Source: Brachycybe producta (lineage: Eukaryota > Arthropoda > Diplopoda > Playtdesmida > Andrognathidae). Taken from it: a stretch of 64,000 bases of DNA. Positions 16,815 through 41,683 of the stretch are shown piece by piece (position 1 is the first letter of the stretch; the number at the start of each line of letters is the position of its first letter). The stretch covers positions 1,864,001-1,928,000 of the forward strand of contig JAUPFP010000014.1 in assembly GCA_036925085.1 (NCBI GenBank), written 5' to 3'. Made by a program: the position numbers and the translations under genes. The notes under the pieces were generated by a model. It saw nothing but the letters and a program-made list of their open reading frames with translations. It was not told where the DNA came from and did no database searches.

Positions 16815-19800
16815 TTATTGTGGTTTCTGATTTGGGTTGAAGTTCTTCGGAAGATCTTCCCAGCACCTCCAGTAATCTTGATCCATTTTCTGAGACATTG
16901 CCCATTTGGTAACATTCATTTCCATGCATGTCTCGAACATGATTGACTTTTAAAAAAACCGGAAATTAAGTCATAATTTGAAAAAATTTTTAATTTTCAT
17001 TTGCATAAATGGTGTGTGTGTGTGTGTGTTTACCATGCATCCTTCTGCAACACGTTCGGGCGCAAGTTTAGCCGAACTTGCCTTTTTGTAGCATGCGGTA
17101 TCGGGACCGTGAGGAGTCATCATGGGAATAAGAGTGGCACATCCGGGCTGCATCGATTCCTATTGTATTCCAAAGGAATAAAAAGTTAAAATTTTGGGAA
17201 AACACATTTTACATTTTATCCGAAACTCACCTTTGCTTCGTATTTGCCTTGAATGCAACCCATAAATTCAGTCATGCAATTGCCTTTTTATATTAAAATG
17301 AAACAGAAGAAGAAATTAACATAAATGAAAGAGTAATTTTGAGTTGAAACTTACGGTGATAATATGGTGGTCGGAATGTGTGTTCGGCCACTGCCCACCT
17401 TGGTGGAAAGCAAACAAGATCACCAATTGGCATTGAACTGCAGTTTGATGAGCATGTCAGGACCGTAAAGATGGATGGGTCCTAAATTTAAACAACAATT
17501 GTTAAGGACCCATTTTACAAAAACAATATGCAAATGAAGTACAGCACAATGGAAATAGAACTTTGATTATGCATTTCTTATACAGATTTTGAACCAAATT
17601 GTCAGGCAATTTTAAATTCCTACATTTTTGGATTTTTTTTTCTCCCTTCAAGTTGGGTCCAAATTGTGAAAATATCTAGTCTTGATAGGGCAAGTGTCCC
17701 ACATCCGAAATTAATTGAAATAATCGTAAAACAAAAACGTACACAATGATCGTAACAGACGGCATTGACGGCCATAAAGTTGTTCATGTTGTATTTGTAC
17801 GGAACGTAATTTCCGTGCCAAGCAACAACATCAAATGGAGAATGGTTTTGTGTGTAACAACGAAGTTGGCCCTGATGTTTCTGAACCATCATGTAGTTTT
17901 GGCAAGTACGATCTTCGTACCAGGCAGTCGGCACTTCGAAATCACGAGGATTAGCACATCCGTTAGCTCCTATATTAGCATAGAATTAGGATTAGGTTCG
18001 GACGGAGGAGAGAAGAGTTCAGAGTTCGGCCGGCCAAACTGACCCATGACTCCCAATTCTGGAAGTTTGAAGTGACCATCGAGAACTTCCATCATGTAAC
18101 CACGGCACTGTCCATCAACGTTCACGTTGAAACGTATTCCACGCTATAATAAATAATATAGAAATAAGATTTTTTTTTAAAACATGTGTAAACACTAGAG
18201 ACTGGTTAGAGGCTAGTTTTCCAGTCACTAGCATCTGTGTAGCCTCTAACCATCTTTTTTTTATTAGGAAAAGTATACATATTCTTCAGATAATTTTTAG
18301 TTTTGTTCTATTTAGTTTAGCTTTGTCTTTAGGTTTAGTATATTGCTGTAGAAAAATAATGGCAATAATTTGTTAGAAACTAGAATAGTAAATAAATTTC
18401 CAAAAAAAAAATATGTTTAAGTCTATATCAGTTATTAACTTATTAATTTATATTAGTTTAAAAGGGGAATTTTCATAAAAAATTAATGGTTGAAAGATAA
18501 TCGTTATGAAAACTGATTTTATTTCATTCATTTAATGTTTTGGCTTCAAGCAAACTTTAGAATATTTTTTATGAAAATTTTGAAGTTTTACCTGAATGAC
18601 ACACATTTCATTTGGTTCGACTGTCATTTTTCCGCATTCGGTTGTGATTTTCAGTTTTCCCTGTTGAGGAACTGAAAAAAAAAATATTCAATATAAGTAA
18701 CCATTGTACAGGATTGCAAATGAAAGAAAACATAAGAAATTGAAAGTGTTTTAAGAAACTAGAAGAGTAAACGAAATGAAAAAAAATGATTCAGAAGTTA
18801 AATTTCAGTCATTTTTCAAATTGACATAAGTTTACTTTTAAAAATATCAACATGAGACTATTTTACGTGATCGAGTTGCTCTTCTAGTTTCTAAAATATT
18901 TTCAACTTTTCCTCTTAAAGTTGCTTTCAAAATGCAGAATAACCAAGAGTTTCGGTTGGAAAACACAAGACCATTTTTTAATGCAAAATGAAGTCTATGG
19001 AGAAGACTCAAGGTGGTCGATTATGGAAACTTCATTTTGTAGTCGAAAAGTGGGTCTGTGAGATTAAAAAGTAGAAGTACCAATGCACATATCTCCGTCA
19101 TTGTTACACATGCTTTTGTCCTGCATTGGAGCATTGCAAGTGTAAATGTAAAAAGAGACTCCTTGTCTCTCTCTGGGATGTCCACTTCCACAAACAGTGG
19201 ACATTCCTTGGACAAAATCGTGCTTCTTGGATGGAATCTCAAATGGGTTCCATTTCATCTGAGAAAATAGACAAATTTATTTCATTCAACTGACTTTGAG
19301 GTCATTCTAGTCCACAAAACCCTTTCGAAATACCTGAGTTGAATTGCATTCAGTTTGATTTTCGTACCAGTTGTGAGTTATGTTGCCGTTGTCCATTGGC
19401 TTCGAAGGTTGTTGCTGTTGGCACGATGGAAGGATACGATACATCCATCTGAAATAACATCATTTATATCATTAATGAGTATTCATTTCTTGGCAGAACA
19501 TTTAGAAAACAACTTCGTTTCTGGTTCTTTAAGGAAGCCAGTTATTCTCAACAAACGGCTCCACAAATCACTCCTCCATTTCTTAATTGGGGGAGACTAG
19601 ATTGGCTCGCGAGCCATCTGTTGAGAACCACGTAATGAACTCTAAAATTATGCAAAAAATAAAAAGGGTCCTTACGTTCTTTGGTTGTCTTTTCTGGGTA
19701 CAGTAAAGCAAGTTCCGGATACTTGTTCGGCATACAATCCATAAGGACAAACTTGGGGAGAATTCTATTTAATTTTAAATAATAGACAAAACAATATTAA

Positions 19801-21732
19801 ATGAGCGCTATGACGTCATATGTTTCATTTTGTACCTGATGTTGGGGCAGTGCTTTGGGGCATCTTGGATCTTCGGACGTGAATTCGTTTCCGAATCCAT
19901 TCATATACTGAAAACAAATAATTAAATTTAAATTAAATTAATTAATTAGCTATTTATAAATCGTGTCAAGGATGTTTTCTTTTAAATATATTAAGATGTA
20001 AATTATACAAATAAATTACTTGTATAATTAACTGTTTATGCCAAATAATATAATTTTAAATAATTTGATAATTTGGCATAAACAGTTTTTGGCGACCATT
20101 TTTTTTTTTAATAATTGTGGAAGTTTATTCTGAAGCAATTTCTATTTCGTTTTAAAAAAAATATTCTCATTTTCCATATTTCAACATTCGAAATTTCATT
20201 AATGACAACTGTGGCAATATAATTATATTTTTATCAATTTGAACTATAACCTTTAGAATTATCAATTAAGCAATCACAAATATTTTGTTTGCTCAAAACG
20301 CAATTTAAAAAAAAAAAAAACTTCTGAGAAAATCTCAGAAAATATTCTCTGAGAGTTATTCTCAAAAAAAAAATAATCTGAGAGTTATTCCCAAAAAAAA
20401 AATAATCTGAGAGTTATTCCCAAAAAAAAAAATAATCTGAGAGTTATTTCCAAAAAAAAAAATAATCTGAGAGTTATTTCCAAAAAAAAAAATAATCTGA
20501 GAGTGACTCTCAGACTGTTAACAACCATCGAATGGTGTCAGATAGTTTCAGCATTCAAGTAATTACTGTTTATTTAGCAAAAATATTAAATGAATCACAA
20601 AAAAGCAAATACATGAATTACATTGAATTTTATATTAATTAATTAAAATTTCATTAATTATAATTTATTATACAAAATCAACTGAAATTCAACGGCATCA
20701 AAATATAATACACTAATGCCTCGTTTTACGGCCGAGTTGCGTCCAGGAAAAGTTGGCCATTTATTTTCAACATTGTAAATTGCATGTACAGGTGTGTTTT
20801 TGGCCGTATATCGAAAAATTTTGGGCTGTAAATCGAAACGTAAGCTAAGGCCGCATAAAGAGGACGGGCCGTATAGCGAGGTATGAATGTATTTATTTTT
20901 TGATGTTTTTTTAAATATTTAAACTAGAAAACACAACTTAATATTTAATTAATACTTAATTATTTTAACGTATTCAGTTCGATTTTTTAACAAATAAATT
21001 GAGAGAAAAATCTTAACGAAAAAAGTTTTGTAAAAGTTTTTTTTTTTTTTTTTTTGTTTATTTAAATCATATTTTGAAGTTTTTTTGAACATTTATTTTC
21101 GTTTCAATATTATTTTAATACTAGTGGGGTAACCCGTCATAAATGACGGGAGCAAAATTCACAGGCAATTGTGCGCATGCGCGTCGTTTTTTCTTTTTTT
21201 TTTTAACTCCTTTCATTTCAATTTCAGTCACCCCCTCCCACTTTTTCCCACTCCACGTTTCTCTCCCCCCTCTACACTTTCCAACCTTTTCCCCTCTCCA
21301 ATTTAATATCATGGAGTTCTTGTATGGGAATTCAACATATAGTTGACCTTGAGAGAAAAAACGGTTCATTTATTCAAATTTATATAAATTCCGACGTTCC
21401 ACACACACACACACAGACCTGGCTCAATATGTTATTGTTAAATATTTTGTTTTTAAATAAAACAAAAAAATCAAATTAAATGTAAATTAGTTTAAAAAAA
21501 TTAAATGAGTAAAAATTTCAATGAGAGAATAATTTTTTAAAAAAAGTTTTAAATTTATTCATTTTAATTAAATCATATTTTGAACTATTTTTTTTAAACA
21601 TCTTTTAATATTTTAAATTTTTACTTTTTCACAAAAAAACTACTTCTTTCTAAAAAAAAAAAAATAAACATAAAATTAAATTAGATAAAAGTTTTAAAAA
21701 AGTTTTGCAAAAGTTTTTTTCTCATTGATTTC

Positions 21733-21768
<36 letters not shown>

Positions 21769-21965
21769 TCAATAAAAAAATTATATTTATAATAAATATT
21801 TAATATATATATATATATATAGAAATAGAGAAATAGAGAGAGAATCAATAAAAAAATATATTTAAAATAAATATTTAAAAACTTGCAATATAAAATTAAT
21901 TAATTTTTAATTATTAATTAAATACATACTTTCAAGTTGTCGAAATTATTGTTGTCACCAGACAT
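16815..21965 (-). CDS. Homogentisate 1,2-dioxygenase family, copy 1 (most canonical)
   Basis: Twelve exons on the minus strand: 21930-21965, 19836-19907, 19676-19764, 19334-19448, 19081-19258, 18592-18671, 18044-18143, 17743-17969, 17355-17481, 17231-17283, 17034-17159, 16815-16946. Phases match throughout and give 444 residues (human HGD, 445). HGD opens the ring of homogentisate to maleylacetoacetate in tyrosine breakdown, using one Fe(II). Family marks: [82 protein letters not shown]. By alignment to the human enzyme, iron ligands H341, E347 and H376 (human H335, E341, H371), catalytic H298 (human H292) and Y356 (human Y350) are all present. Human H365 is Ile. The N-terminus is short ([12 protein letters not shown]). 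Sequence is clearly diverged from typical animal HGD, so a related substrate is possible. Confidence 0.93.
17011..17030. repeat. GT microsatellite, copy 1 intron 11
   Basis: A short TG run next to the exon 11 donor. In copies 2-4 it is reduced to TGTGTGTTT or similar. Confidence 0.8.
19811..19818. promoter_or_regulatory. CRE-like palindrome TGACGTCA in HGD-like intron 2
   Basis: The 8-bp cAMP-response palindrome lies 18 bp past the exon 2 donor and is kept in all four copies (27372-27379, 34793-34800, 40791-40798) although the bases around it differ. Function is inferred only; the same word also occurs elsewhere in the window. Confidence 0.35.
20338..20515. repeat. 30-bp tandem repeat, 6 copies, copy 1 intron 1
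   Basis: Units of CTGAGAGTTATTCCC plus an A-run and TAAT recur every 29-30 bp. The array is present only in the long (2.0 kb) first intron of copy 1. Confidence 0.8.
20711..20889. mobile_element. pogo/Tigger-like MITE, copy 1 intron 1
   Basis: TA at 20709-20710 and 20890-20891 flanks inverted ends CACTAATGCCTCGTTTTACG and the mirror CGTATAGCGAGGTATGAATG. A TA target site with a CCTCGTTTTA-type end is characteristic of pogo/Tigger elements of the Tc1/mariner superfamily. Only 179 bp, no coding capacity. Confidence 0.75.
21190..21300. repeat. Pyrimidine-rich tract and small hairpin, copy 1 intron 1
   Basis: A strongly C/T-biased tract follows a small hairpin (ACCCGTCATAAATGACGGG at 21132-21150). 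Overlapping open frames on both strands come from this base bias. Confidence 0.5.
21737..21766. repeat. GA microsatellite in HGD-like intron 1
   Basis: A GA run follows TTGATTTCAATGAGA. The homologous site is expanded in copy 3 (35825-35881), shorter and interrupted in copy 2 (27835-27866), and nearly absent in copy 4 (41569-41575). It is therefore a fast-changing marker between copies. Confidence 0.85.
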
Positions 21966-22047
21966 CTTGATGGTTAATTAATATTTTCTAGAAAGTTTAA
22001 GAAAGTTTTCTTCCGAAGATAATGAAACTCCCTTCTTTTTGGGTCGA

Positions 22048-22055
22048 CTTTTATA
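22048..22055 (-). promoter_or_regulatory. TATA box, HGD-like copy 1
   Basis: TATAAAAG on the minus strand, 83 bp upstream of the ATG and giving an expected start site about 30 bp downstream. The same box stands at the same place in copies 2-4 (28077-28084, 36087-36094, 41790-41797) within a conserved stretch of roughly 120 bp. Confidence 0.7.
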
Positions 22056-22059
22056 CTAA

Positions 22060-22958: not shown

Positions 22959-22959
22959 A

Positions 22960-23760: not shown

Positions 23761-23932
23761 GAATTAAACTTTATTGCAAAATAATTTCACTAAAATAACA
23801 TAATATCAACAAGCAAAAATAACAAGAATTAGTTAAAAATAATTTGAGGACCAAAAAAGAACATGATTTGGGATTTTAAAAGGTAATTTTTTAAGATTTT
23901 TCTGTCTTTGTTTTCATTTTTGAATGAAAATT

Positions 23933-26900
23933 TTATTGTTGTGGTTTCTGATTTGGGTTGAAGTTCTTTGGAAGATCTTCCCTGCACTTCCAGAAATCTT
24001 GGTCCATTTTCTGAGACATTGCCCATTTGGTAACATTCATTGCCATGCATGTCTCGAACATGATTGACTTTAAAAAAAAAACGGAAATTTACGTCAAAAT
24101 TTGCAAATTTTCAATTTTGATTTGCATAAATGATGTGTGTTTACCATGCATCCTTCTGCAACACGTTCGGGCGCAAGTTTAGCCGAACTTGCCTTTTTGT
24201 AGCATGCGGTATTGGGACCGTGAGCAGTCATTATGGGAATAAGAGTGGCACATCCGGACTGCATCGCCTGCCATATCATTCAAAAGGAATCAAGAGAGTT
24301 AAAATTTGGGGGAAAAACATTTTACATTTTATCTGAAACTTACAGTTGCTTCGTGTTTGCCTTGAATGCAACACAGAAATTCAGTCATGCAACTGCCTTT
24401 TGATATTAAAAATGAAAAAGAAAAAAAGAAATTAACATAAATGAACAAGAGTAATTTTGAGTTGAAGCTTACGGTGATAATACGATGCTCGGAAGGTGTG
24501 TTCGGCCGCTGCCCACCTTGGTGAAAAGCAAATAAGATTAGCAATTGGCATTGAATTGCAGTTTGATGAGCATGTCAGGACGGTAAAGACGGATGGGTCC
24601 TAAATTCAAGCAAAAATTATTAAGGATCCATTTTACAAAAATACGCAAATGAAGTACGGGAACAATGGAAATAGATAGAACTTTGATTATGCAAAAAATG
24701 TTTTAAAAACTAGAAGAGGAAATGCATCATTGAAGAGAATTTCCAATTATCATTGTTTTTTAGCTTCAAGTTGGGGCCAAAACACAGAATAACAAAAATT
24801 CCTAATGATGTTATGATTATGAAATTGAAACGATAAGCCCAGGAGCGATCCTGGATCCTTTCTCCTCCCAGTCCCACCCCTTAATACAAAGAGATTTTCC
24901 TGATAAGCCTCAGCATTAAGCCTATGTGGTTGTAATTTTCTTTTGTAAGTTTGTTTTGATTGTTTTTTTTGTTTGTTTTGTTTAAGTATGTTTGGTTTTT
25001 ACTTTTGTTTTTGCCCAATCAGAGGATTCTGAGAAAGTGTTTTCAGTATCTTCTTTTTGGGTATAAAAGGGCCGTGTTTTTGTATATTTGTTAAGCACTT
25101 TTTGATTTAACTGAGCTATGATGAATCTATGCCCAATTAGGGCTAAATTCGGAATCAATTGTATATGTGGATGGTTATTATGAACAAAAAGCTGCTGGAA
25201 GTTTATTTTCTACTTTTTGAATCGAACGAAGAACTTGGAGCAATTTTGTCATCTAGGACTGTCAACCCAGGTGTAGTAAACCAGGATCTCCAGCACTAGA
25301 TGACACTTCAGAAGACAACACGATCAACCAGCTTTTAATCGGGGGGGGGGGGGGAAGCCCGAGGGGTAGCAGACAGCGAAAGATTCTTAAAACTGTAAAG
25401 GTTCTTGTGAGAGGAACTTGTGAGGAAACGAACGGGACTAATTTGCTCCCTTCCTCCCGGACCAGGGTAGAATTAGTGGCCTAGCCAACCACTTTCAGAT
25501 CGCTCGAAAGGGCGCAACGAAGCATTGGGAGAATTCTATCCACCCCCTGAACGTGGTTTGTTACGATATAATTCAATTAATCGTAAAAAAAACGTACACA
25601 AAGATCGTAACAGACGGCATTGACGGCCATAAAGTTGTTCATGTTGTATTTGCATGGAACATAATTTCCGTGCCAAGCAACAACATCAAATGGAGAATGG
25701 TTTTGTGTGTAACAACGAAGTTGGCCCTGATGTTTCTGAACCATCATGTAGTTTTGGCAAGTACGATCTTCGTACCAGGCAGTCGGCACTTCGAAATCAC
25801 GAGGATTAGCACATCCGTTAGCTCCTATATTAGTACAGAATTAGAATTTAATTAGGAATTTTTTTACGAAGGTCAAAGTTCGGCCGTCCAAACTGACCCA
25901 TCACTCCCATTTCTGGAAGTTTGAAGTGACCATCGAGAACTTCCATCATGTAACCACGGCATTGTCCATCAACGTTCACATTGAAACGAATTCCACGCTA
26001 TAATAAATAGTATAGAAATAAGATTTTTTTTTTGTTAAATGTGTAAACAATAGAGACTGGTTAGAGGCTAGTTCGGCGTAGAGTGAATGAAAATTGGAAG
26101 TTTTTTCTTGTTTCATTTACCGGCATGACACACATTTCATTTGGTTCAACAGTCATTTTTCCACATTCGGTTGTGATTTTCAGTTTTCCCTGTTGAGGAA
26201 CTGAAAAAAAATATTCAATATAAGTAACCATTGTACACTATGCAAATGAAAGAAATCATAAGAAATTGAAAGTGTTTTAAGAAACTAGAAGAGTAAGCGA
26301 ACTAGTGGACGTTTTTTTTTAAAAAAAAATGATTCAAAAGTTAAATTTCAGTCATCATTTAAATTGACATAAAAAGTTTACTTTTAAAAATATCAACACG
26401 AGACTATTTGACGTGATCGAGTTACTCTTCTAGTTTCTAAAATACTTTCAACTTTTTTTCTTCTTAAAGTTGCTTTCAAAATGCAGAATAACCAAGAGTT
26501 TGGGTTGGAATACGCAAGACCACTTTTTAAATGTAAAATGAAGTCTAAAAGTGGTTGCCATTCTATGAAAAAACTCAAGGTGGTCGATTTTGGCAAATTG
26601 ATTTTGCGTTTTGGTCTGTGTGATTAAAAAGTAGAAGTACCAATGCACATATCTCCATCATTGTTACACATGCTTTTGTCCTGCATGGGAGTATTGCAAG
26701 TGTAAATGTAAAAAGAGACTCCTTGTCTCTCTCTAGGATGTCCACTTCCACAGACAGTGGACATTCCTTGGACAAAATCGTGCTTCTTGGACGGAATCTC
26801 AAATGGGTTCCATTTCATCTGAGAAAATAGACAAATATTTATTTCATTCAACTGACTTTGAGGTCATTCTAGTCCACAAAACCCTTTCGAAATACCTGAG

Positions 26901-27832
26901 TTGAATTGCATTCAGTTTCAGATTCATTCCAGTTGTGGGTTATGTTGCCATTGTCCATTAGTTTCGAAGGTTGTTGCTGTTGGCACGATGGAAGGATACG
27001 ATACATCCATCTGAAATAATATCATTTATTCATTAATGAGTTTATTAATTTCTTGGCAGAACATTTAGAAAACAACTTCGTTTCTGGTTCTTTAAGTAAG
27101 CCAGTTATTCTCAACAAACGGCTCCACAAATCACTCCATTTCTTAATTGGGGGAGACCAGATTGGCTCACGAGCCATCTGTTGAGAACCACGTAATGAGC
27201 TCTAAAATTATGCAAAAAATAAGAAGGTTCCTTACGTTCTTTGGTTGTCTTTTCTGGGTGCAGTAAAGCAAGTTCCGGATACTTGTTCGGCATACAATCC
27301 ATAAGGACAAACTTGGGGAGAATTCTATTTAATTTTAAATAATAAGACAAAACAATATTAAATGAGCCCTATGACGTCATATTTTTTATTTTGTACCTGA
27401 TGTTTGGGCAGTGCTTTGGGGCATCTTGGATCTTCGGACGTGAATTCGTTTCCGAATCCATTCATATACTGGAAACAATTAATAATTAATTAATTAGTAT
27501 ATGATGCAAATAAATGAGAACAATGGAATGGAACTCTGGTTCTTTCTACGTTTCGGCAGCTGAATTAAGATGGTTAAATAGGTGGAAAAAAAAACAATTT
27601 CAATAATTACACAAAAGTTTTAAATTTATTCATTTTAATTAATTCGTATTTTGAACTATTTTTAAACATATATTTTAACGTTTACTTTTTTTTTCATAAA
27701 TTACTTCTTAACTATTAAAATATTTAGTTTGATTTTTATTTCTATCTAAAAATAACCATCAAATTAAATTAAAATTAAATTAAAAGTGTAAAAAAGTTTT
27801 GCAAAAGTTTTTTTTTCTACATTGATTTCAAT

Positions 27833-27866
<34 letters not shown>

Positions 27867-27994
27867 TACAATCAATTAAAAAAATTATATTTATAATACA
27901 TATTTAAAAATTCGAAATATAAAATTAATTAATTTTTAATTATTAATTAAATACATACTCTCAAGTCGTCGAAATTATTGTTGTCACCAGACAT
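23933..27994 (-). CDS. Homogentisate 1,2-dioxygenase family, copy 2 (catalytic His replaced)
   Basis: Twelve exons: 27959-27994, 27397-27468, 27236-27324, 26896-27010, 26641-26818, 26121-26200, 25898-25997, 25598-25824, 24473-24599, 24344-24396, 24145-24267, 23933-24067. Total 1335 nt with all phases intact, giving 444 residues. The iron-ligand motifs are kept (YYHRSCMTE and TAHGPN). The residue matching human catalytic H292 is Leu: the exon reads CYDLC where the other copies read CYDHC. The Tyr350 equivalent is His (GKHEAT). FPPRW has become FSPRW, and a C-terminal Trp has become Arg. The frame is open, so this is either a functionally altered protein or a young pseudogene. Intron 8 carries an insertion of about 740 bp not seen in the other copies. 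Same orientation, TATA box and poly(A) signal as its neighbours. Confidence 0.9.
24826..25569. mobile_element. 740-bp insertion in copy 2 intron 8
   Basis: Copy 3 reads straight through TTATGAAATAATTCAATT (about 33000-33017). Copy 2 breaks after TTATGAAAT and resumes at ATAATTCAATT, with AT repeated at the junction. The insert carries a CCAAT-like word, GGGTATAAAAGGGCCGTG (about 25059) and a 14-base G run near 25341. Its TATA box and lack of an open frame suggest a retroelement LTR fragment, but no inverted or long direct ends were seen. Confidence 0.6.
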
Positions 27995-28084
27995 CTTGAT
28001 GGTTAATTAATATTTTCTAGAAAGTTTAAGAAAGTTTTCTTCCGAAGATAATGAAACTCCCTTCTTTTTGGGTCGCCTTTTATA

Positions 28085-29200
28085 CTAAATTATAACGAGG
28101 GTCATAGGCGTAAATTAGGGATGCGCGGGGAGGCGGCCGCAACCCCCAAAAAACTGACTTAATTTTCTTTTGTCACATTTGTCACCAATTTATCTATGGT
28201 TTTACATGCTGGCCCTAACAGTTCAATCGTTTATCTATTTTGAGAAGGACCTTAAGAATTTACAGTTCAACGTTCATTGTTTATGATCTTTCTGAACTTT
28301 CCAATGAAGTTTCTAACTAGAGGTGATCAATAAGCGGATCGCGAGCCGACGTAATTCCACATTTTTTATTAAAATTCTAAAAGAAAAATTAGTCAAAAAT
28401 CTTGTTTTATTTTATTTATTTCGTATTTATTGAACAATTGACGATTGGGTTTTATTTAGATCAGGGAAGAATATTAAATGAGTGGCCCTTTTAGTGGTTG
28501 TAGGTTGGACACAGATCTGGTTTCATTACTTAATAGGTTCAGTTCAAGATGGCCGCCGATTAAGAATATCACTTAAGAGCCTACAGTGAAAAAAAAAACT
28601 TACAAAAATCTTCGCATGTGGGCGCTTCTGTAGCTGTGACGTCAACATAAACGTAAAACGAGGGATATTCCATATTTCACTCTCCCTTTCCAACACTGTC
28701 TATTATTATTTAAATTACATAACTATTTCACTTTCCAGACATTTTAATATCATATTACCACAAATATATAAAAAAAAGATCGAAATCATATACATTTAGA
28801 AAATTACGACCTTGATTATCCAAATTTCATCAACTTTTTTTTGTTTCGTTCAATTGTTTATGAACTTTCTGAACTTTCCAATATAGTTTATAACTAGAGA
28901 TGATCAATAAGTGGCTCGCGAGCAACGTAATTCCACACTTTTATTAAAATTATAAAAGAAAATGCGTCAAAAATCTTGTTTTATTTTGTTTATTTCGTAT
29001 TTATTGAACAATTGACGTTTGATTTCTAGTTAGATTAGAGAAGAGCTTTAAATGAGTGGCCCTTTTAGTGGGTTTAGGTTGGACACAGGTCTGGTTTTAA
29101 GTTCAGTTTTTAAGTCAAGTCTGGTCTAGGTTCAGTTCAAGATGGCCGCCGATTAAGAAGATCACTTAATACGTTTATATGAGAGAAATTAACCACTAAC
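28085..29200. other. HGD-like copy 2 upstream region with internal duplication
   Basis: A segment of about 560 bp (about 28095-28660) is inserted between CGAGGG and ATTCCATATTTCACTC, a junction that is intact in copy 3. The inserted part itself repeats downstream sequence (TTCTGAACTTTCC, GATCAATAAGCGG, TCAAGATGGCCGCC). As a result copy 2 carries this upstream module twice (about 28270-28570 and 28850-29170). Confidence 0.55.
28545..28557. promoter_or_regulatory. YY1-like motif CAAGATGGCCGCC upstream of HGD-like copy 2
   Basis: An exact 13-mer found about 0.55 kb upstream of the copy 2 ATG and again at 29138-29150, 36583-36595 (copy 3) and 42296-42308 (copy 4). It fits the AAGATGGC core bound by YY1 in other animals. 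Function is inferred. Confidence 0.4.
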
Positions 29201-29436: not shown

Positions 29437-29454
29437 TATTTATGTAATATATGG

Positions 29455-29814: not shown

Positions 29815-31200
29815 TGTTATTTTTACCTCCACTCTATAGCCCTGAATGTAAAAATTGGAAATTTTGGAAAGGGGAAGAAGTGAAAGTGTACAGCTTGGTT
29901 CTGGTTCTAGACAATTGTCTATATGGGGAACCACTATCCCTGTTTTGATTAAGTTGTGCCCCCTATGTTTCTTAGTGTACTCTTACTTTATTGGCCTTGT
30001 TTAAAAGTAAATTATTAGTTTCCTACCTTTTCTTGATGCTTGTTCAGATGTTCAGTTGATTTGGGGTTGTGGAGTTGATTGCTGAATTTGCACACACTTA
30101 AATTAAACACCAACTCAAATGACAATCACAAAACACTATGAAGTTTGCATACAATTTATTGTTTGAACATGTAACCAACCAAAATTATTTAGAGTTCTAA
30201 ATGTGTTAACTCAAAATATTTTCTAAGTAAATCAAACAATACACTAGGTTTCTATAGGAAACTAGTATATTGTTGTCTTTTTTCTTGAAAAGAAAACTAA
30301 GTCCTTCTGGTCCCTTTACAAACCACTGGTATTCTTTTATCTCTTTCTCTCTCTCTCTCTCTAGCTGTAGACACTCTGCTCGAGAGCCTCTCCCACACTC
30401 TCCTTGAGAGTCTGCCACGCTCTAGTCTAAAATCTAAAATGAACTGACTAAAATTGAAGATTTTCAGTCTATTCTAGTTTCTCATTGGTCAACTTGGGTT
30501 GATTATTCAATCATTTAATTGGTCAACCTTATGATTGACAAGTGAAAGTATTGCGATTGACATGAAAGACTAACATGATATCAGGTGTTGACAAAAGTTA
30601 CATTAAATGTAAACACAGGTGTGACCTTTCTTAGAAAAGGTTAATTTTAAGTGTTAGTTTGATTTAAAAGTAATGATAGAATAATATTATATCTTATTAT
30701 GATTGACAGGCCATTTTAACATTTCCTCTTATTGTGACAGCAAATCTCATAAATTATTTTTGTGATCTTATTATTTTCACACCCCCAGCCTAGTCACCGT
30801 ATGATATTTTGTTAATGTGCGATGTGTATGCCTATTGTAGTTAATTATTTCTTCTTTCTATTATCATTGTTTCACTTAAGGTGTTATATTACACCTTTTA
30901 GCTTTTACATACGACACACCTGTTATGGAGACTGTTTACATTTTAAAGTTTCTTCGTCACTATCTTCTATTCATTTTCAGGTGTCACATTACACCTTTCT
31001 AGTTAAACACCTGTTTTCATTCATGACGTTCTTTTAAACATTATTATTAACATTATTATCATTATCATTATTATTATTCTCTTTTATTTTCTCTCTTCTT
31101 TTTATGTTTCTATTCGTTTTAAATTCTGTTTTTTGTGTTTGTATATAAATTAATGTTAGGTGCTTGTGGTGTATTGGGTGCATTATTTGAACACCTAACA
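29815..31200. mobile_element. Solo-LTR-like insertion, 1386 bp
   Basis: The element begins TGTTATTTTTACC and ends GAACACCTAACA (TG...CA), with TAAC at 29811-29814 and 31201-31204. The corresponding place between copies 3 and 4 (37211-37220) reads TAATAACTTT with no insert, so it is a clean empty site holding a single TAAC. A GTATATAAA box lies 60 bp before the right end, and that end forms a hairpin (TGTTAGGTG with CACCTAACA). No long open frame. TG..CA ends, a short target duplication and no coding fit a solo LTR; the superfamily is not determined. The region also contains a CT-rich run near 30341-30363. Confidence 0.75.
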
Positions 31201-31229
31201 TAACTTTCCATCAAAATTGTCTTATTACT

Positions 31230-31940
31230 TTATTTAAAAAAAAAGTGTACTAAGTTTGTTGTTTTTGCACTAGGTGTCGCTTCTATTGAATAATAATTTG
31301 AATGAAATCAAGACAAGAAAGCAAAAGAAACTAAATGCATTCAAATGAAATTAACATTCTTTTTTGCTAATTGATGAATTTGAAAGTAGGCAATCACTGC
31401 ATGCACCAGAGCAATGCTAATTTTTTTTTTTTGAGTGAAACTGAAACAAAGCTAAACTTAAAATACTCTCTCCATAGAGACTAACTATGGAAAGTTTTGA
31501 CTTTCGTCATGGTTTAAGCTTAACTTTATTCTAAAGTAAAAATATTTTTATAATAATTTCTTGGCTTTTAAACTTAATAAGGATTAATGTTCTTTTGATG
31601 GAAAAAAGCCTCGATCCAGGCTCCAACCTGCAGATTTTCCATTAAAAGCTACTTCTTTTATTTTAAGGAATCTTTTTTGGAAATGGAGGTTTAAAGTAGT
31701 TAGATTTTTTCTTAAAAAGGAACTCAAAAATGTATTTCAGTGCCTCAAAGGTAAACTGTGTTAAGTCACCAAGCCTTTTAACATGGTATACTACCATCTA
31801 GTGGAAGATGTGTAAAGCTGTGGACTTAACACTGTAAACTGTAACATTGTTAATTTAAACAAAAAAACTAAATATTTTTTTAAAAAATGATTTTTTGTAA
31901 ACTTTGATAAACGAAATCAGTAGAAACGATTTTTTTTAAA
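31230..31940. repeat. HGD-cluster 3' flank of copy 3
   Basis: This block (ACTAGGTGTCGCTTCTATTG, AAGTAGGCAATCACTGCATG, CTACCATCTAGTGGAAGATG) is nearly identical to 37240-37940 downstream of copy 4 and partly to 15600-16010. It contains no gene. AAGCCTCGATCCAGGCT (about 31606) is a small hairpin, also present at 37618. Confidence 0.6.
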
Positions 31941-32115
31941 TTTGTGCCAACTTTATTGCAAAATAATTTCACTAAAATAACATAATATCAATAAACAAAA
32001 ATAACAAGAATTAGTGAAAAAAAAATTTGAGGACCAAAAAAGAACATGATTTGGGATTTTAAAAGGTAATTTTTTAAGATTTTTCTGTCTTTGTTTTCAT
32101 TTTTGAATGAAAATT

Positions 32116-35100
32116 TTATTGTTGTGGTTTCTGATTTGGGTTGAAGTTCTTTGGAAGATCTTCCCAGCACCTCCAGAAATCCTGGTCCATTTTCTGAGAC
32201 ATTGCCCATTTGGTAACATTCATTTCCATGCATGTATCGAACCTAACCGACTAAAAAAAAACCGCAATGAAATTCACGTCAAAATTTGAAAAAGTTTCAA
32301 TTTTGATTTGCATAAATGGTGTGTGTTTGTTTACCATGCATCCTTCTGCAACACGTTCTGGAGCAAGTTTAGCCGAACTTGCCTTTTTGTACCATGCGGT
32401 ATTGGGACCGTGAGCAGTCATTAAGGGATAAAGAGTGGCACATCCGGGCTGCATCGCCTGCCATGTCATTCAAAAGGAATCAAGAGAGTTAAAATTTGGG
32501 GAAAAAACATTTTACATTTTATCTGAAACTTACAGTTGCTTCGAATTTGCCTTGAATGCAACACATAATTTCAGTCATGCAACTACCTTTTGATATTAAA
32601 AATGAAAAAGAAAGAAATTAACATAAATGAAAATAGTAATTTTGAGTTGAAACTTACGGTGGTAATACGGTGCTCGGAAGGTGTGTTCGGCCGCTGCCCA
32701 CCTTGGTGGAAAGCAAAGAAGATCAGCAATTGGCATTGAATTGCAGTTTGATGAGCATGTCAGAACCGTAAAGGTGGATGGGTCCTAAATTCAAACAAAA
32801 ATTATTAAGGTTCCATTTTACAAAAATATGCAAATGAAGTAGAGGAACAATGGAAATAGATGGAACTTTGATTATGCAAAAAAATGTTTTAAAAACTAGA
32901 AGAGGAAATGCATCATTGAAGAGAATTTTCAAGTTTGTAATTTTATCATTAATTGTGGCCAAAACACAGAATAACGAAAATTTCTAATGATGTTTTGATT
33001 ATGAAATAATTCAATTAATCGTAAAAAAAAACCGTACACAATGATCGTAACAGACGGCATTGACGGCCATAAAGTTGTTCATGTTGTATTTGCATGGAAC
33101 GTAATTTCCGTGCCAAGCAACAACATCAAATGGAGAATGGTTTTGTGTGTAACAACGAAGTTGGCCCTGATGTTTCTGAACCATCATGTAGTTTTGGCAA
33201 GTACGGTCTTCGTACCAGGCAGTCGGCACTTCGAAATCACGAGGATTAGCACATCCGTTAGCTCCTATATTAGTACAGAATTAGAATTTAATTAGGAATT
33301 TTTTTACGAAGGTCATAGTTCGGCCGGACAAACTGACCCATCACTCCCATTTCTGGAAGTTTGAAGTGACCATCGAGAACTTCTATCATGTAACCACGGC
33401 ACTGTCCATCAACGTTCACATTGAAACGAATTCCACGCTATAATAAATAGTGTAGAAATAAGATTTTTTAAAAATATGTGTAAACACTAGAGACTGGTTA
33501 GAGGCTAGTTCGGCTTAGAGTGAATGAAAGTTTCTTGTTTCATTTACCGGCATGACACACATTTCATTTGGTTCAACAGTCATTTTTCCGCATTCGGTTG
33601 TGATTTTCAGTTTTCCCTGTTGAGGAACTGAAAAAATAAATATTCACTGTAAGTAACCATTGCACAGGATTGCAAAGGAAAGAAAACATAAGAAATTGAA
33701 AGTGTTTTAAGAAACTAGAAGGGTAAACGAACTACTTAAGAGGTTTTTATGTTATCCATGAAAAAGGACTCTAAAAATGATTCAAAAGTTAAATTTCAGT
33801 CATTTTTCAAACTGACATAAAAAGTTTACTTTTAAAAATCTCAACATGAGACTATTTTACTCTTCTAGTTTCTAAAATATTTTCAACTTTTTTCTTCTTA
33901 AAGTTTCTTTCAAAATGCAGAATAACCAAGAGTTTGGACCACTTTTTCAATGCAAAATGAAGTCTAAAAGTGGTTGCCATTTTATGGAAAAACTCAAGGT
34001 GGTCGATTTTGGCAAATTGATTTTGCGTTTTGGTCTGTGAGATTAAAAAGTAGAAGTACCAATGCACATATCTCCGTCATTGTTACACATGCTTTTGTCC
34101 TGCATTGGAGCATTGCAAGTGTAAATGTAAAAAGAGACTCCTTGTCTCTCTCTGGGATGTCCACTTCCACAAACAGTGGACATTCCTTGGACAAAATCGT
34201 GCTTCTTGGACGGAATCTCAAATGGGTTCCATTTCATCTGAGAAAATAGACAAATATTTATTTCATTCAACTGACTTTGAGGTCATTCTAGTCCACAAAA
34301 CCCTTTCGAAATACCTGAGTTGAATTGCATTCAGTTTGATTTTCGTTCCAGTTGTGGGTTATGTTGCCATTGTGAATTGGCTTCGAAGGTTGTTGCTGTT
34401 GGCACGATGGAAGGATACGATACATCCATCTGAAATAACATCATTTATTCATTAATGAGTTTATTCATTTCTTGGCAGAACATTTAGAAAACAACTTCGT
34501 TTCTGGTTCTTTAAGTTAACCTGTTATTCTCAACAAACGGCTCCACAAATCACTCCTCCATCTCTTCCGTAGAGACTAGATTGGCTCGCGAGCCATATGT
34601 TGAGAACCACGCAATGCGCTCTTGAAATTATGCAAAAAAATAAAAAAGGTCCTTACGTTCTTTGGTTGTCTTTTCTGGGTGCAGTAAAGCAAGTTCCGGA
34701 TACTTGTTCGGCATACAATCCATAAGGACAAACTTGTGGAGAATTCTATTTAATTTTAAATAATAAGACAAAACAATATTAAATGAGCTCTATGACGTCA
34801 TATTTTTTATTTTGTACCTGATGTTGGGGCAGTGCTTTGGGGCATCTTGGATCTTCGGACGTGAATTCGTTTCCGAATCCATTCATATACTGGAAAAATA
34901 GTGAATAATTAATTAATTAATTAGCATATTATGCAAATAAATGAGAACAATGGAATGGAACTCTGGTTCTTTCTACGTTTCGGCAGCTGAATTAAGATGA
35001 AATTGGTTTATAAACTAGAAGAGTCGCTGTAATTTGACATAAGGCGATTTTCGAGTTGTCTTATCTTTTAAAATAAACTTTTCGTCACAATTTCAAACTC

Positions 35101-35820
35101 TCTAATTTCTATAGTTGTTTTTAAAAACTTTTAGTATTTTAAAAGCCTCATAAATAGTTTATTTTTGAAGATATGAACATGACAATTCTGTTAAGTGATT
35201 GGGTTACTTTTCTAGTTTCTACAGTTTTTCTTAATTTTGCTCTCCTGAAAGACGGAATAAGAAGAGTTCCACAAAATCAGTTATTTATAAATCATCTTAA
35301 GGATGTTTGTTAAATTATACAAATAAATTATTTGCATAATTAATTAACTGTTTATACTAAATAATTTCACTATTTGAAATAATGTTTTGAAATAAAGTTT
35401 TGCAACAGTTTGCTTTTGTTCTAATTGATTTAAATCAAAGAAATCAAATTTTAACAAATTTTAAACTTTTTAACATTAATTTTGGTTTCAATGTCGTTTT
35501 AATATTTTAATAATTTGTTTCTGAAAAAAAATAAAACATAAAAATCAAATTAAATGTAAATTAGTTTTAAAAGGTTAAATAGGTAAAAACAATTTCAATA
35601 ATTAAACAAAAGTTTTAAATTTATTCATTTTAATTAATTCGTATTTTGAACTATTTTTAAACATGTATTTTAACGTTTACTTTTTTTTCATAAATTACTT
35701 CTTAATTATTAAAATATTTAGTTTGATTTTTATTTCTATCTAAAAATAACCATCAAATTAAATTAAAATTAAAAAAGTGTAAAAAAGTTTTGCAAAAGTT
35801 TTTTTTTCTACATTGATTTC

Positions 35821-35883
<63 letters not shown>

Positions 35884-36004
35884 ATCAATAAAAAATATAT
35901 TTACAATAAATATTTAAAAATTTGCAATATAAAATTAATTAATTTTTAATTATTAATTAAATACTTACTCTCAAGTTGTCGAAATTATTGTTGTCACCAG
36001 ACAT
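32116..36004 (-). CDS. Homogentisate 1,2-dioxygenase family, copy 3
   Basis: Twelve exons: 35969-36004, 34818-34889, 34657-34745, 34315-34429, 34060-34237, 33548-33627, 33338-33437, 33038-33264, 32658-32784, 32534-32586, 32335-32457, 32116-32250. Total 1335 nt with intact phases, giving 444 residues. Catalytic His298 (CYDHC) and the three iron ligands are present. The Tyr350 equivalent is Phe (GKFEAT), and the human H365 position is Tyr (TLYPLM). The last exon opens SVRFDTC where copies 1 and 2 have SIMFETC. Exon 11 has TAWYKK in place of TACYKK. Intron 7 and intron 5 sequences group it with copy 2. The 1.39-kb LTR-like insertion lies in its downstream flank. Confidence 0.91.
35825..35881. 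repeat. GA microsatellite, about 28 repeats, copy 3 intron 1
   Basis: An uninterrupted GA run 90 bp inside the first intron. It is the longest of the four homologous GA tracts. Confidence 0.9.
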
Positions 36005-36094
36005 CTTGATGTTTAATTAATATTTTCTAGAAAGTTTAAGAAAGTTTTCTTCCGAAGATAATGAAACTCCCTTCTTTTTGGGTCGCCTTTTATA

Positions 36095-36640
36095 CTAAAT
36101 TATAATGAGGGTTATTCCATATTTCACTCTCCCTTTCCAACACTGTCTATTATTAATTAAATTACATAACTATTTCACTTTCCAGACATTTTAATATCAT
36201 ATTACCACAAATATATATATTTAAAAAAATCGAAATCATATATTTAGAAAGTTATGACCTTCATTATTCAAATTTCAACAACTTTTTTTTTTCGTTCATT
36301 GTTTATGAACTTTCTGAACTTTCCAATAAAGTTTCTTATTTGAGGTGATCAATAAGTGGCTCGCGAGCAACGTAATTCCACACTTTTATTAAAATTCTAA
36401 AAATAAATTTGTTAAAAAACTTGTTTTATTTTATTTAATTCGTATTTATTGAACAATTGACGTTTGATTTCTAGTTAGATTAGAGAAGAGCTTTAAATGA
36501 GTGGCCCTTTTAGTGGGTTTAGGTTGGACACAGGTCTGGTTTTAAGTTCAGTTTTTAAGTCAAGTCTGGTCTAGGTTCAGTTCAAGATGGCCGCCGATTA
36601 AGAAGATCACTTAATACGTTTATATGAGAGAAATTAACCA
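36095..36640. other. HGD-like copy 3 upstream region
   Basis: Matches the upstream region of copy 2 from CCATATTTCACTCTCCC to AGATCACTTAATACGTTT, but carries the YY1-like module only once (36583-36595). No gene. Confidence 0.5.
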
Positions 36641-36644
36641 CTAA

Positions 36645-36881
36645 CGTTTAGAGATCAACCAACAATTATGGTTTTTTTTTTCTCAATCAAAAACATTGGT
36701 TAGAGGCTAGCACTATGTTAGTAACCATGACATTAGCCTCTAATCATCCTATTTCATTAGAAAAAAAAACTATAAATGCAGTTGCTGTCTCTAATGATGA
36801 TGATGATTAATTACGTAACAATTGACACTTGGGCCACAAGTTGAGAAACATTTGCTTGATATTGCATAATAATCCGAGCCC
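36645..36881. mobile_element. Family A foldback, left end lost (duplicate of 29195-29436)
   Basis: Same truncated copy as upstream of HGD-like copy 2. The right end is ATAATCCGAGCCC followed by TA. Confidence 0.75.
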
Positions 36882-36889
36882 TACTTATC

Positions 36890-37150
36890 TAATATATGGC
36901 TAATACCTAGTACACACCTGATACTTTAAATGCATTTAAATAATAAACGTGTTCTACAGAGCCCCGTGAAGGACAAACAAACAATATGTCGAATTCAATT
37001 TATTCAGTTAATAATCTGAAAATATTGAGTTAATACTTAAATATAATATATGACAAAATATTGATTTAGTATTTCAATTTAAAATATTAATAATAAAAGT
37101 CAATTTTTATTTGGTGTCCATGTCCTTAACTGGATTCCGTATAATTCACC
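36890..37150. repeat. Repeat family C, downstream flank of HGD-like copy 4
   Basis: Third member of the block seen at 13497 and 29455. It lacks the last 40 bp or so after CGTATAATTCACC. Confidence 0.65.
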
Positions 37151-37239
37151 ACGTCTGTGGTATAACAAGGTATAACAGCTTAGCTACTAATTTATATTCT
37201 CATGTAAACGTAATAACTTTCCATCAAAATTGTCTTATT

Positions 37240-37950
37240 ACTTTATTTAAAAAAATGTACTAAGTTTGTTGTTTTTGCACTAGGTGTCGCTTCTATTGAA
37301 TAATAATTTGAATGAAATCAAGACAAGAAAACAAATGAAATTAAATACATTCAAATGAAATTAACATTCTTTTTTGCTAATTGATGAATTTGAAAGTAGG
37401 CAATCACTGCATGCACCAGAGCAATGCTAATTTTTTTTTTTGAGTGAAACTGAAACAAAGCTAAACTTAAAATACTCTCTCCATAGAGACTAAATATGGA
37501 AAGTTTTGAATTTCGTCATGGTTTAAGCTTAACTTTATTTTAAGGTAGAAATATTTGTTTATAATAATTTCTTCTCTTTTATAAACTTAATAGGGAGTAA
37601 TGATCTTTTTATGGAAAAAGCCTCGATCCAGGCTCCATCCTGCAGGTTTTCCATAAAAAACTACTTCTTTTATTTTAAGGAATCTTTTTTTTGGAAAAAT
37701 GGAGGTTAAAGTAGTTAGATTTTTTTCTTAAAAAGGAACTCAAAAATGTATTTCAGTGCCTCAAAGGTAAACTGTGTTAAGTCACCGAACCTTTTAACAT
37801 GGTATACTACCATCTAGTGGAAGATGTGTAAAGCTGTGGACTTAACACTGTAAACTGTAACATTGTTAATTTTTAAAAAAACTAAATATTTTTTTAAAAA
37901 ATGATTTTTTGTAAACGAAATCAGTAGAAACGATTTTTTTTAAATTTGTG
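37240..37950. repeat. HGD-cluster 3' flank of copy 4
   Basis: Near-identical to 31230-31940. It joins directly to the family C block because the 1.39-kb insertion is absent here. Confidence 0.6.
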
Positions 37951-38121
37951 CCAACTTTATTGCAAAATAATTTCACTAAAATAACATAATATCAATAAGT
38001 AAAATAACAAGAATTAGTTAAAAATAATTTGAGGACCAAAAAAGAACATGATTTGGAATTTTAAAAGGTAATTTTTTTTAGATTTTTCTGTCTTTGTTTT
38101 CATTTTTGAATGAAAATTTTA

Positions 38122-41100
38122 TTATTGTGGTTTCTGATTTGGGTTGAAGTTCTTTGGAAGATCTTCCCAGCACCTCCAGTAATCTTGATCCATTTTCTGA
38201 GACATTGCCCATTTGGTAACATTCATTTCCATGCATGTCTCGAACATGATTGACTTTAAAAAAAAAAACGGAAATTCACGTCAAAATTTGAAAAAGTTTC
38301 AATTTTGATTTGCATAAATGGTGTGTGTTTACCATGCATCCTTCTGCAACACGTTCGGGCGCAAGTTTAGCCGAACTTGCCTTTTTGTAGCATGCGGTAT
38401 TGGGACCGTGAGCAGTCATCAAGGGATAAAGAGTGGCACATCCGGGCTGCATCGCCTGCCATGTCATTCAAAAGGAATCAAGAGAGTTAAAATGTGGGGG
38501 GAAAAATATTTGAAATTTTATCTGAAACTTACAGTTGCTTCGTGTTTGCCTTGAATGCAACACATAATTTCAGTCATGCAACTACCTTTTGATATTAAAA
38601 ATGAAAAAGAAGAAATTAACATAAATGAAAGAATAATTTTGAGTTGAAACTTACGGTGATAATATGGTGCTCGGAAGGTGTGTTCGGCCGCTGCCCACCT
38701 TGGTGGAAAGCAAATAAGATCACCAATTGGCATTGAACTGCAGTTTGATGAGCATGTCAGGATCGTAAAGACGGATGGATCCTAAATTCAAACAAAAATT
38801 ATTAAGGATCCATTTTATAAAAAAAAAATATGCAAATCAAGTACAGGAACAATTTTGATTATGCAAAAAATGTTTTAAAATTACTAGAAGAGAAAATGCA
38901 TCCTTGAAGTTTATGAACAAAATTGCTTTTTAACTTCAAATTGGGGGCCAAAACACAGAATAACGAAAATTACAAGGATGTTTTGATTATGAAATAATTC
39001 AATTATTCGTAAAAAAAAAACCCGTACACAATGATCGTAACAGACGGCATTGACGGCCATAAAGTTGTTCATGTTGTATTTGCATGGAACGTAATTTCCG
39101 TGCCAAGCAACAACATCAAATGGAGAATGGTTTTGTGTGTAACAACGAAGTTGGCCCTGATGTTTCTGAACCATCATGTAGTTTTGGCAAGTACGATCTT
39201 CGTACCAGGCAGTCGGCACTTCGAAATCACGAGGATTAGCACATCCGTTAGCTCCTATATTAGCATAGAATTAGGATTAGGTTCGGACGGAGGAGAGAAG
39301 AGTTCAGAGTTCGGCCGGCCAAACTGACCCATCACTCCCATTTCTGGAAGTTTGAAGTGACCATCGAGAACTTCCATCATGTAACCACGGCACTGTCCAT
39401 CAACGTTCACATTGAAACGAATTCCACGCTATAATAAATAATATAGAAATAAGATTTTTTTTTTGTTAAATGTGTAAACAATAGAGACTGGTTAGAGGCT
39501 AGTTTGGCGTAGAGTGAATAAAAATTGGAAGTTTTTTCTTGTTTCATTTACCGGCATGACACACATTTCATTTGGTTCAACAGTCATTTTTCCACATTCG
39601 GTTGTGATTTTCAGTTTTCCCTGTTGAGGAACTGAAAAAAAAATATTCAATATAAGTAACCATTGTACACTATGCAAATGAAAGAAAACATAAGAAATTG
39701 AAAGTGTTTTAAGAAACTAGAAGAGTAAGCGAACTAGTGGACGTTTTTTTTTAAAAAAAAATGATTCAAAAGTTAAATTTCAGTCATTTTTTAAATTGAC
39801 ATAAAAAGTTTACTTTTAAAAATATCAACACGAGACTATTTGACGTGATCGAGTTACTCTTCTAGTTTCTAAAATACTTTCAGCTTTTTTTCTTCTTAAA
39901 GTTGCTTTCAAAATGCAGAATAACCAGTAGTTTCAGTTGGAAAACACAAGACCATTTTTTAATGCAAAATGAAGTCTATGGAAAGACTCAAAGTGGTCGA
40001 TTATGGAAACTTCATTTTGTAGTCGAAAAGTGGTCAGAAAGTGGGTCTGTGAGATTAAAAAGTAGAAGTACCAATGCACATATCTCCATCATTGTTACAC
40101 ATGCTTTTGTCCTGCATTGGAGCATTGCAAGTGTAAATGTAAAAAGAGACTCCTTGTCTCTCTCTAGGATGTCCACTTCCACAAACAGTGGACATTCCTT
40201 GGACAAAATCGTGCTTCTTGGACGGAATCTCAAATGGGTTCCATTTCATCTGAGAAAATAGACAACATTTAGTTCATTTCTGACTTTGAGGTCATTCTAG
40301 TCAACGTTTAAAACCCTTTCGAAATACCTGAGTTGAGTTGCATTCAGTTTGATTTTCGTTCCAGTTGTGGGTTATGTTGCCATTGTCCATTGGCTTCGAA
40401 GGTTGTTGCTGTTGGCACGATGGAAGGATACGATACATCCATCTGAAATAACATCATTTATTCATTAATGAGTTTATTCATTTCTTGGCAGAACATTTAG
40501 AAAACAACTTCGTTTCTGGTTCATTAAGTTAACCTGTTATTCTCAACAAACGGCTCTTCCATCTCTTCCTTAAAGACTAGATTGGCTCGCGAGCCATCTG
40601 TTGAGAACCACGTAATGAACTCTAAAATTATGCAAAAAATAAAAAGGGTCCTTACGTTCTTTGGTTGTCTTTTCTGGGTGCAGTAAAGCAAGTTCCGGAT
40701 ACTTGTTCGGCATACAATCCATAAGGACAAACTTGGGGAGAATTCTATTTAATTTTAAATAATAGACAAAACAATATTAAATGAGCGCTATGACGTCATA
40801 TGTTTCATTTTGTACCTGATGTTGGGGCAGTGCTTTGGGGCATCTTGGATCTTCGGACGTGAATTCGTTTCCGAATCCATTCATATACTGAAAACAAATA
40901 ATTAATAATTAATTAATTAGCATATTATGCAAATAAAAGAGAAGAGTTCCATAATTAGCTATTTATAAATCGTCTCAAGGATGTTTTTTTAAAAAACATA
41001 TTAAAATGTAAATTATACAAATATAAATTATTTGTTTAAATATAAATAAAAGCAGATAATAAATTAATTAATAGTTGATTCTTCTAAACAGTCATTTTTA

Positions 41101-41683
41101 TATAATTTTAAAATAAATAAATTGTTTTAAATAAGAGATGGTTTTTAATATTTTTAAATAAAAGTTTTTTTTTAAAAGAAAATTTAAAAAAATGACGATT
41201 TAGAAGAATCATCTAATTAATTAATAAAAAAAATAGTCAAGTATATTTTTTTCTAATAAATTAATCTTAATGAAAAAAAAGTATTACAAATATTTTTACT
41301 TTTTCTAATTGATTTCAATGGAATAAATCAATTATTTATTCAATAACAAAATATTTTAAAATATTAAAAATGATGTTTTTATATTATTTTAATATTTAAT
41401 TTTTTTTTTTTTCATAAATTAATTAATTATTAAAAATATTACGTTTAATTTTTTTCTTTCTCTCTAAAAAATAAGCATAAAATAAATTAAATAAAAGTTT
41501 TAAAAAAAGTTTTGCAAAAGTTTTGCAAAAGTTTTATTTCTCATTGATTTCAATGAGAGAGACATGAATAAAAATTCATATAAATTTAAATATATGAAAA
41601 CTTTGAATATAAAATTAATTTTTTTTAATTATTAATTAAATACTTACTTTCAAGTTGTCGAAATTATTGTTGTCACCAGACAT
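38122..41683 (-). CDS. Homogentisate 1,2-dioxygenase family, copy 4
   Basis: Twelve exons: 41648-41683, 40816-40887, 40656-40744, 40328-40442, 40072-40249, 39552-39631, 39329-39428, 39028-39254, 38655-38781, 38533-38585, 38333-38455, 38122-38253. Total 1332 nt (443 codons plus stop) with intact phases. A second in-frame ATG directly upstream (41684-41686) would add one Met. Catalytic His and iron ligands are kept (CYDHC, YYHRSCMTE, TAHGPN). The Tyr350 equivalent is His (GKHEAT) and the human H365 position is Tyr. Introns 2, 5 and 7 and the KPQ C-terminus match copy 1, while intron 6 and the exon 6 end (CVMP) match copy 2, so this copy is a mosaic. It is the copy nearest the MAP3K gene, in head-to-head orientation. 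Confidence 0.91.

Follow-up and report, generated by a model that had tools for sequence, protein, structure and literature searches.

Loss of homogentisate dioxygenase (HGD) causes alkaptonuria. The closest described system, the human enzyme (PDB 1ey2/1eyb), is a two-domain protein with the iron ligands His335, Glu341 and His371, and passages of two papers present His292, Tyr350 and His365 as residues thought to handle substrate protons and carboxylate in HGD (PMC4019311, PMC6337169). In these passages, His292 and His365 are proposed as the bases that set substrate protonation (PMC4019311), His365 is bonded to Glu341, and Tyr346 of bacterial HGD folds a loop over the substrate (PMC6337169); we equated Tyr346 with human Tyr350 through the four-residue offset of the ligands. 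No tandem HGD copies in animals appeared in the titles and abstracts listed by literature searches. Here we describe four HGD genes, A to D, arranged in tandem in a 64,000-nucleotide stretch of the genome of the millipede Brachycybe producta (GCA_036925085.1; 295,300,729 bases in 442 contigs). This stretch, positions 1864001-1928000 of contig JAUPFP010000014.1 (C14), is hereafter called the window.

The four proteins resemble animal HGD in being full-length, collinear two-domain proteins with 52-57% identity to the human enzyme and the same iron ligands. They are unlike it in lacking His365 (all four copies), Tyr350 (three copies) and His292 (one copy), in carrying Cys in place of Gly361, in containing about twice as much Cys and Met, and in forming an array of four tandem genes with no other HGD found. 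Gentisate and salicylate dioxygenases are also bicupin enzymes that cleave the ring of para-diphenols by an analogous mechanism, but they have a three-His iron site according to part of one paper (PMC4019311), whereas all four copies retain Glu341 and align with HGD over their whole length. HGD missense alleles of alkaptonuria likewise change conserved positions such as 361 and 122, and G361R of human HGD leaves about 20% activity, as stated in sections of PMC9663557; in contrast, the changes in the millipede copies are fixed, lie in intact genes under selection and introduce other replacement residues. We give a slightly better than even chance to the explanation that a sole HGD, aberrant beforehand, has recently expanded in tandem, with copy A cleaving homogentisate and the pockets of B, C and D relaxed or retuned. 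None of the HGDs detectable in this animal has His365 and only one has Tyr350, while the preceding and following steps of the pathway are kept. Homogentisate cleavage by any one copy would mean that the need proposed for His365 is mistaken or that His365 has been replaced; if no copy has this activity, the animal has rewired its tyrosine breakdown. Four intact copies with differently rebuilt active sites offer a natural experiment on the parts of HGD that are needed.

Four intact HGD genes with different active-site residues

Gene models were constructed by splice-aware protein-to-DNA alignment with our own script, and exon 1 and the stop codon were added. A human HGD sequence served as the guide and for residue numbering; its residues 217-294 agree with PDB chain 1ey2, and its H292, H335, E341, H365 and H371 are at the literature positions. 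An initial annotation of this DNA had described four 12-exon genes of about 444 codons in one orientation with unbroken frames, each with a TATA box, a poly(A) signal and common flanks, and the models agreed with it on every point (Table 1). All four genes are on the minus strand and encode 443-444 residues, the spliced models contain no stops or frameshifts, all 44 introns have GT..AG boundaries, and each gene is accompanied by TATAAAA and AATAAA motifs. Copy A has the lowest coordinates and is the last in the direction of transcription. The copies share flanks over kilobases, with a 90.5% match between positions 31200-34947 and 37213-40943, and a second common flank (28654-29716 versus 36101-37150) matches at 94.5%. 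The Pfam families HgmA_N (E values of 9e-116 to 4e-114) and HgmA_C (9e-47 to 3e-63) matched all four proteins at levels well outside chance and together cover their full length, HGD being the sole family matched.

H335, E341 and H371 are present in all four copies, as had also been noted in the initial annotation. At positions 292/350/365, where the family has His/Tyr/His, the copies have four different pockets: His/Tyr/Ile in A, Leu/His/Ile in B, His/Phe/Tyr in C and His/His/Tyr in D. The earlier observations that only the first copy (our A) keeps both the catalytic His and the substrate Tyr, and that His365 is replaced by Ile or Tyr in every copy, were thus correct, with the addition that C and D do keep His292. 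The canonical Tyr350/His365 pair is swapped to His350/Tyr365 in copy D. The most decayed pocket is that of copy B, which has the further changes D314N, P319S, P332S, M343L and W427R, and Gly361 is changed to Cys in 4/4 copies.

For comparison, we took the best 120 of 7999 scored homologues and removed eight with at least 560 residues, leaving 112, many of them environmental and unnamed. His292, Tyr350, His365 and the iron ligands are present in 112/112 of these. Among 182 positions conserved in at least 97% of the homologues, A retains 160, D 146, C 144 and B 142. There are 103 positions invariant in 112/112 and human HGD, 21 of which are altered in one or more copies (8 in every copy and 13 only in some of B-D), and within human residues 294-394, ten residues invariant in 112/112 are retained by A and altered in some or all of B-D. 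The chance of retaining the three iron ligands was 0.46 when calculated from unvaried columns in exons 9-11, or 0.22 from kept invariant residues. Ligand retention in B-D is compatible with catalysis and hints at it weakly, yet would be expected by chance at these rates.

Divergence of the copies and the other steps of tyrosine breakdown

Identity to human HGD is 56.7% for A, 52.2% for B, 52.4% for C and 53.1% for D, compared with 65.2-87.0% for the 112 homologues, and the best identity to the copies among the listed homologues is 62%. In a tree of 63 rows (the four copies, human HGD and 58 of the best 120 homologues), all four copies group in a single clade, with a Shimodaira-Hasegawa-like approximate likelihood ratio test (SH-aLRT) support of 100, among animal, loosely arthropod, HGDs. 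Their stem branch is 1.19, as against a median end branch of 0.23 and a next longest seen of 0.65; their exact place is weakly supported (82), and their letter composition was flagged as unlike that of the other rows. A search for relatives with the odd C-terminal words of D, which covered residues 325-400 and required three common five-residue words, yielded no candidate.

The copies are also unusual in composition. They contain 27 (A), 29 (B), 28 (C) and 29 (D) Cys residues, while the maximum in the 112 homologues is 17, and 6.3-7.0% Met, while the homologues have a mean of 2.85% (standard deviation 0.42, maximum 3.82%); Leu is about 3.2-3.6%, compared with 6.3% in the homologues. Copy A differs from the family majority at 157 positions, 36 of which are gains of Met or Cys. 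The percentages of Cys and Met are 1.7 and 2.4 in FAH, 0.5 and 1.4 in HPD1, 1.4 and 1.1 in HPD2, 2.8 and 1.3 in PEX7, and 1.4 and 3.5 in 634 hand-picked residues of flanking genes; the enrichment is not genome-wide, as far as tested. An AT-driven composition was rejected because Leu, Phe and Ile are down, Met, Cys, Gln and Asn are up, and FAH, HPD, PEX7 and the flanking fragments are ordinary. As identity to the human counterparts is 67.0% for FAH and 64.1% for HPD1, HGD is the only modelled pathway gene that shows the acceleration; PEX7 is somewhat fast as well (50.8% identity, end branch 0.54 versus a median of 0.33). Why Cys and Met should have doubled in one enzyme of the pathway but not in the adjacent ones is a further puzzle.

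No second HGD was found in the assembly with the HgmA_C model, for which 8 of 11 candidates matched, or with a canonical Artemia HGD protein (P0042), for which 30/30 candidates matched; all of these matches were at the four copies. The array would apparently be the whole HGD complement of the species. The initial annotation had implied extra copies beside a normal HGD, which these searches did not bear out. It had also named the lack of any other HGD and a position of the copies inside ordinary HGDs, together with equal homogentisate activity of all copies, as findings that would speak against its reading; on the first two, no other HGD was found, and the copies do lie inside animal HGDs, on a long branch. 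What is new here is the status of the array as the sole HGD, the accelerated Cys/Met-rich protein, and the youth of copies whose active-site exons evolve at a nonsynonymous to synonymous rate ratio (omega) of about 1.

The steps around HGD were also located. FAH is a single gene on contig C27 (9/10 matches; one more, weak, on C8), which splices to 416 unbroken residues, and a probable MAAI gene on C2 covers profile positions 67-210 of 211 over three exons, with weaker GST-like matches elsewhere. Nine HPD matches were obtained, which comprise two tandem genes at C54:445196-453312 (locus L034) and an HPD-like gene on C36. The tandem HPD proteins are 64.1% and 53.3% identical to human HPD and 63.8% identical to each other, and they retain the iron ligands, which we take to be H183, H266 and E349. 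All exon-wise matches for FAH, HPD and MAAI were below the whole-protein family cut-off, as expected for split genes. Since no other HGD was found and HPD, FAH and probable MAAI are present, the animal presumably continues to produce homogentisate and to consume the product of its cleavage, and one or more of the four copies presumably carries out the ordinary reaction without His365.

Substitution rates and possible functions of the copies

Synonymous divergence (dS) among the copies is 0.05-0.10 over the whole coding sequence, and that of exons 9-11 is similar to that of the other exons. The fitted single omega of exons 9-11 is about 1.03 (grid support roughly 0.5-2) and that of the other exons about 0.2 (roughly 0.1-0.4); one omega for both exon sets is worse by 11.8 than two (p 6e-4, from the grid). 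Pairwise omega values of exons 9-11 are 1.64 (A-B), 1.35 (A-D), 0.79 (B-D), 0.71 (B-C), 0.65 (A-C) and 0.35 (C-D). Amino-acid-variable columns number 23 of 101 ungapped columns in exons 9-11 versus 24 of 342 elsewhere (p 3e-5), or p 0.03 when set against synonymous-only codons (7 and 24). Frame-breaking gaps are absent from the exons (1332-1335 bases) in all six pairs, as opposed to 12-28 per pair in introns of up to 500 nucleotides (1.2-1.4 kb per pair). The intact frames and the omega pattern together indicate that the genes are kept as proteins with active-site exons free or pushed to change; as omega is not above 1, positive selection is not shown. The idea of the initial annotation that the array is an amplified and diverging ring-cleaving family is supported to the extent that change is concentrated at the active site and two omegas fit better than one, and the new phenolic substrate that it suggested is a possibility.

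Similarity among the copies is mosaic. Intron 7 is 100% identical between A and D and 84% between A and B and between A and C, whereas intron 4 is 100% identical in A, B and C, which are 95-96% identical to D. From this pattern, gene conversion among the copies is likely. An older divergence masked by homogenised exons 1-8 was rejected, because dS of exons 9-11 is like that elsewhere, though the trees of the two exon sets differ.

Under the explanation that we favour, evolution of the only detectable HGD would have been very rapid in this lineage: compared with the family majority, it gained about 16 Cys and 17 Met, and both His365 and the GGFLPGGGSLHS-type loop were lost. Three recent tandem duplications of this aberrant HGD would have followed. 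Selection for a folded, iron-binding bicupin protein would still act on all four copies. Copy A would fill the step between HPD and MAAI/FAH by opening the ring of homogentisate to give maleylacetoacetate. Iron would be bound by H335, E341 and H371, and H292 would serve as the acid/base and Y350 as the substrate lid, all in the absence of H365. This activity is most likely retained in A. The other three copies would probably either join A in mixed hexamers as iron-binding partners that cleave weakly or not at all, or be dioxygenases with a changed specificity.

Several points weigh against this explanation. Because the second-shell His365 is lost in all four copies but invariant in 112/112 homologues, even A may be poor at homogentisate; although His365 is no curated criterion of the family, its loss weakens the case for ordinary activity. 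The stem divergence of A is unexplained if A is the working enzyme. The search for other HGDs was exon by exon, in an assembly of unstated completeness. An omega of about 1 in exons 9-11 would also arise from simple relaxation, and the pairwise values spread widely, from 0.35 to 1.64. Exons 9-11 and the remaining exons give different trees, which may reflect mixing of the copies by gene conversion.

A possible but doubtful alternative is that B, C and D are new iron dioxygenases for other dihydroxy-phenols, with specificity set by the altered 292/350/365 pocket. The distinct triad in each copy, the concentration of change in exons 9-11 with the remainder constrained, the A-B and A-D omegas above and the intact frames would fit such enzymes, and HPD, the preceding step, likewise consists of two tandem genes, one of them divergent. 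However, the fitted omega is about 1 and not above it, retention of the iron ligands is expected by chance at 0.22-0.46, no adjoining gene points to another pathway, and the ring-cleavers of gentisate and salicylate described in part of PMC4019311 have a three-His site, whereas Glu341 is kept in 4/4 copies. We hold it equally tentative that the four copies are a natural series of HGD sites that function without His365, with the Tyr350/His365 pair exchanged in D, in which at least one of B-D opens a ring other than that of homogentisate and the animal has no canonical HGD.

Somewhat less probable, in our view, is that all four are ordinary HGDs whose array raises dosage only, with residues 292, 350 and 365 less important than believed. 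The absence of another HGD from the searches and the presence of the rest of the pathway agree with this, as does the duplication of HPD, which would fit a higher flux, but the ten invariant residues that A keeps within human 294-394 were altered in some or all of B-D within a dS below 0.11. That B-D, or all four copies, are young pseudogenes being lost is quite unlikely. Their exons 9-11 do have an omega of about 1, and second-shell residues are lost, most of all in B, but the exons contain no frame-breaking gap, compared with 12-28 in introns of like length, the 44/44 splice sites, TATA boxes and poly(A) signals are intact, and omega is about 0.2 in the other exons. Near-neutral evolution is confined to exons 9-11 and does not extend over the whole gene, and neither broken frames nor lost splice sites are present.

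Recruitment of the proteins to a non-enzymatic role (sulphur storage, redox buffering, quinone trapping or a lens-type structural protein) would account for 27-29 Cys and 6.3-7.0% Met where the 112 homologues have at most 17 Cys and 3.82% Met, for the lack of this excess in FAH, HPD, PEX7 and flanking fragments, and for tandem copies losing second-shell catalytic residues, but is very improbable because the refractive increment calculated from residue values is not raised (0.1951-0.1959 versus 0.1951, standard deviation 0.0006), no signal peptide was seen by eye, and the species would have no HGD though HPD and FAH remain. On the same refractive increment, an enzyme-derived lens protein was rejected, and nothing linking homogentisate with crystallin or lens was found in the literature matched by title and abstract. 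Millipede quinone chemistry was considered as a link and set aside, as word finds in the main text of two myriapod genome papers gave no mention of homogentisate.

Feature coordinates and neighbouring genes

Table 1. Positions of the HGD copies, their signals and other features in the window
Feature	Position	Strand	Description
HGD copy A	16815..21965	minus	12 exons; coding sequence with stop 1335 nucleotides; 444 residues
HGD copy B	23933..27994	minus	12 exons; coding sequence with stop 1335 nucleotides; 444 residues
HGD copy C	32116..36004	minus	12 exons; coding sequence with stop 1335 nucleotides; 444 residues
HGD copy D	38122..41683	minus	12 exons; coding sequence with stop 1332 nucleotides; 443 residues
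TATAAAA of A	22049..22055	minus	90 nucleotides 5' of ATG
TATAAAA of B	28078..28084	minus	90 nucleotides 5' of ATG
TATAAAA of C	36088..36094	minus	90 nucleotides 5' of ATG
TATAAAA of D	41791..41797	minus	114 nucleotides 5' of ATG
AATAAA of A	16650..16655	minus	159 nucleotides 3' of stop
AATAAA of B	23770..23775	minus	157 nucleotides 3' of stop
AATAAA of C	31952..31957	minus	158 nucleotides 3' of stop
AATAAA of D	37956..37961	minus	160 nucleotides 3' of stop
Exons 9-11 of A	17034..17481	minus	active-site cupin: H335, E341, Y350, position 365, H371
Exons 9-11 of B	24145..24599	minus	active-site cupin exons
Exons 9-11 of C	32335..32784	minus	active-site cupin exons
Exons 9-11 of D	38333..38781	minus	active-site cupin exons
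Lin-28-type exon	3114-3773	plus	CCHC zinc knuckle (PF21890)
Tandem array	3968-4215		31-bp unit, 8 copies, 94%
Tandem array	6557-8239		31-bp unit, 54 copies, 100% identity
ASK1 (MAP3K5)-like gene	49442-54634	plus	kinase exons and HisK-N-like domain
PEX7 gene	57680-59930	minus	10 exons modelled
DEAD-box helicase exon	62574-62921	plus	PF00270

The strongly conserved ASK1 (MAP3K5)-like gene is a useful conserved control beside the fast HGD array. For PEX7, the peroxisomal targeting signal 2 receptor, the nearest among the matches listed was that of the millipede Chamberlinius (54% identity; SH-aLRT 87). The DEAD-box exon presumably belongs to DDX18. The larger tandem array is a very young or homogenised satellite, and the sequence of the smaller one appears unrelated to it by eye.

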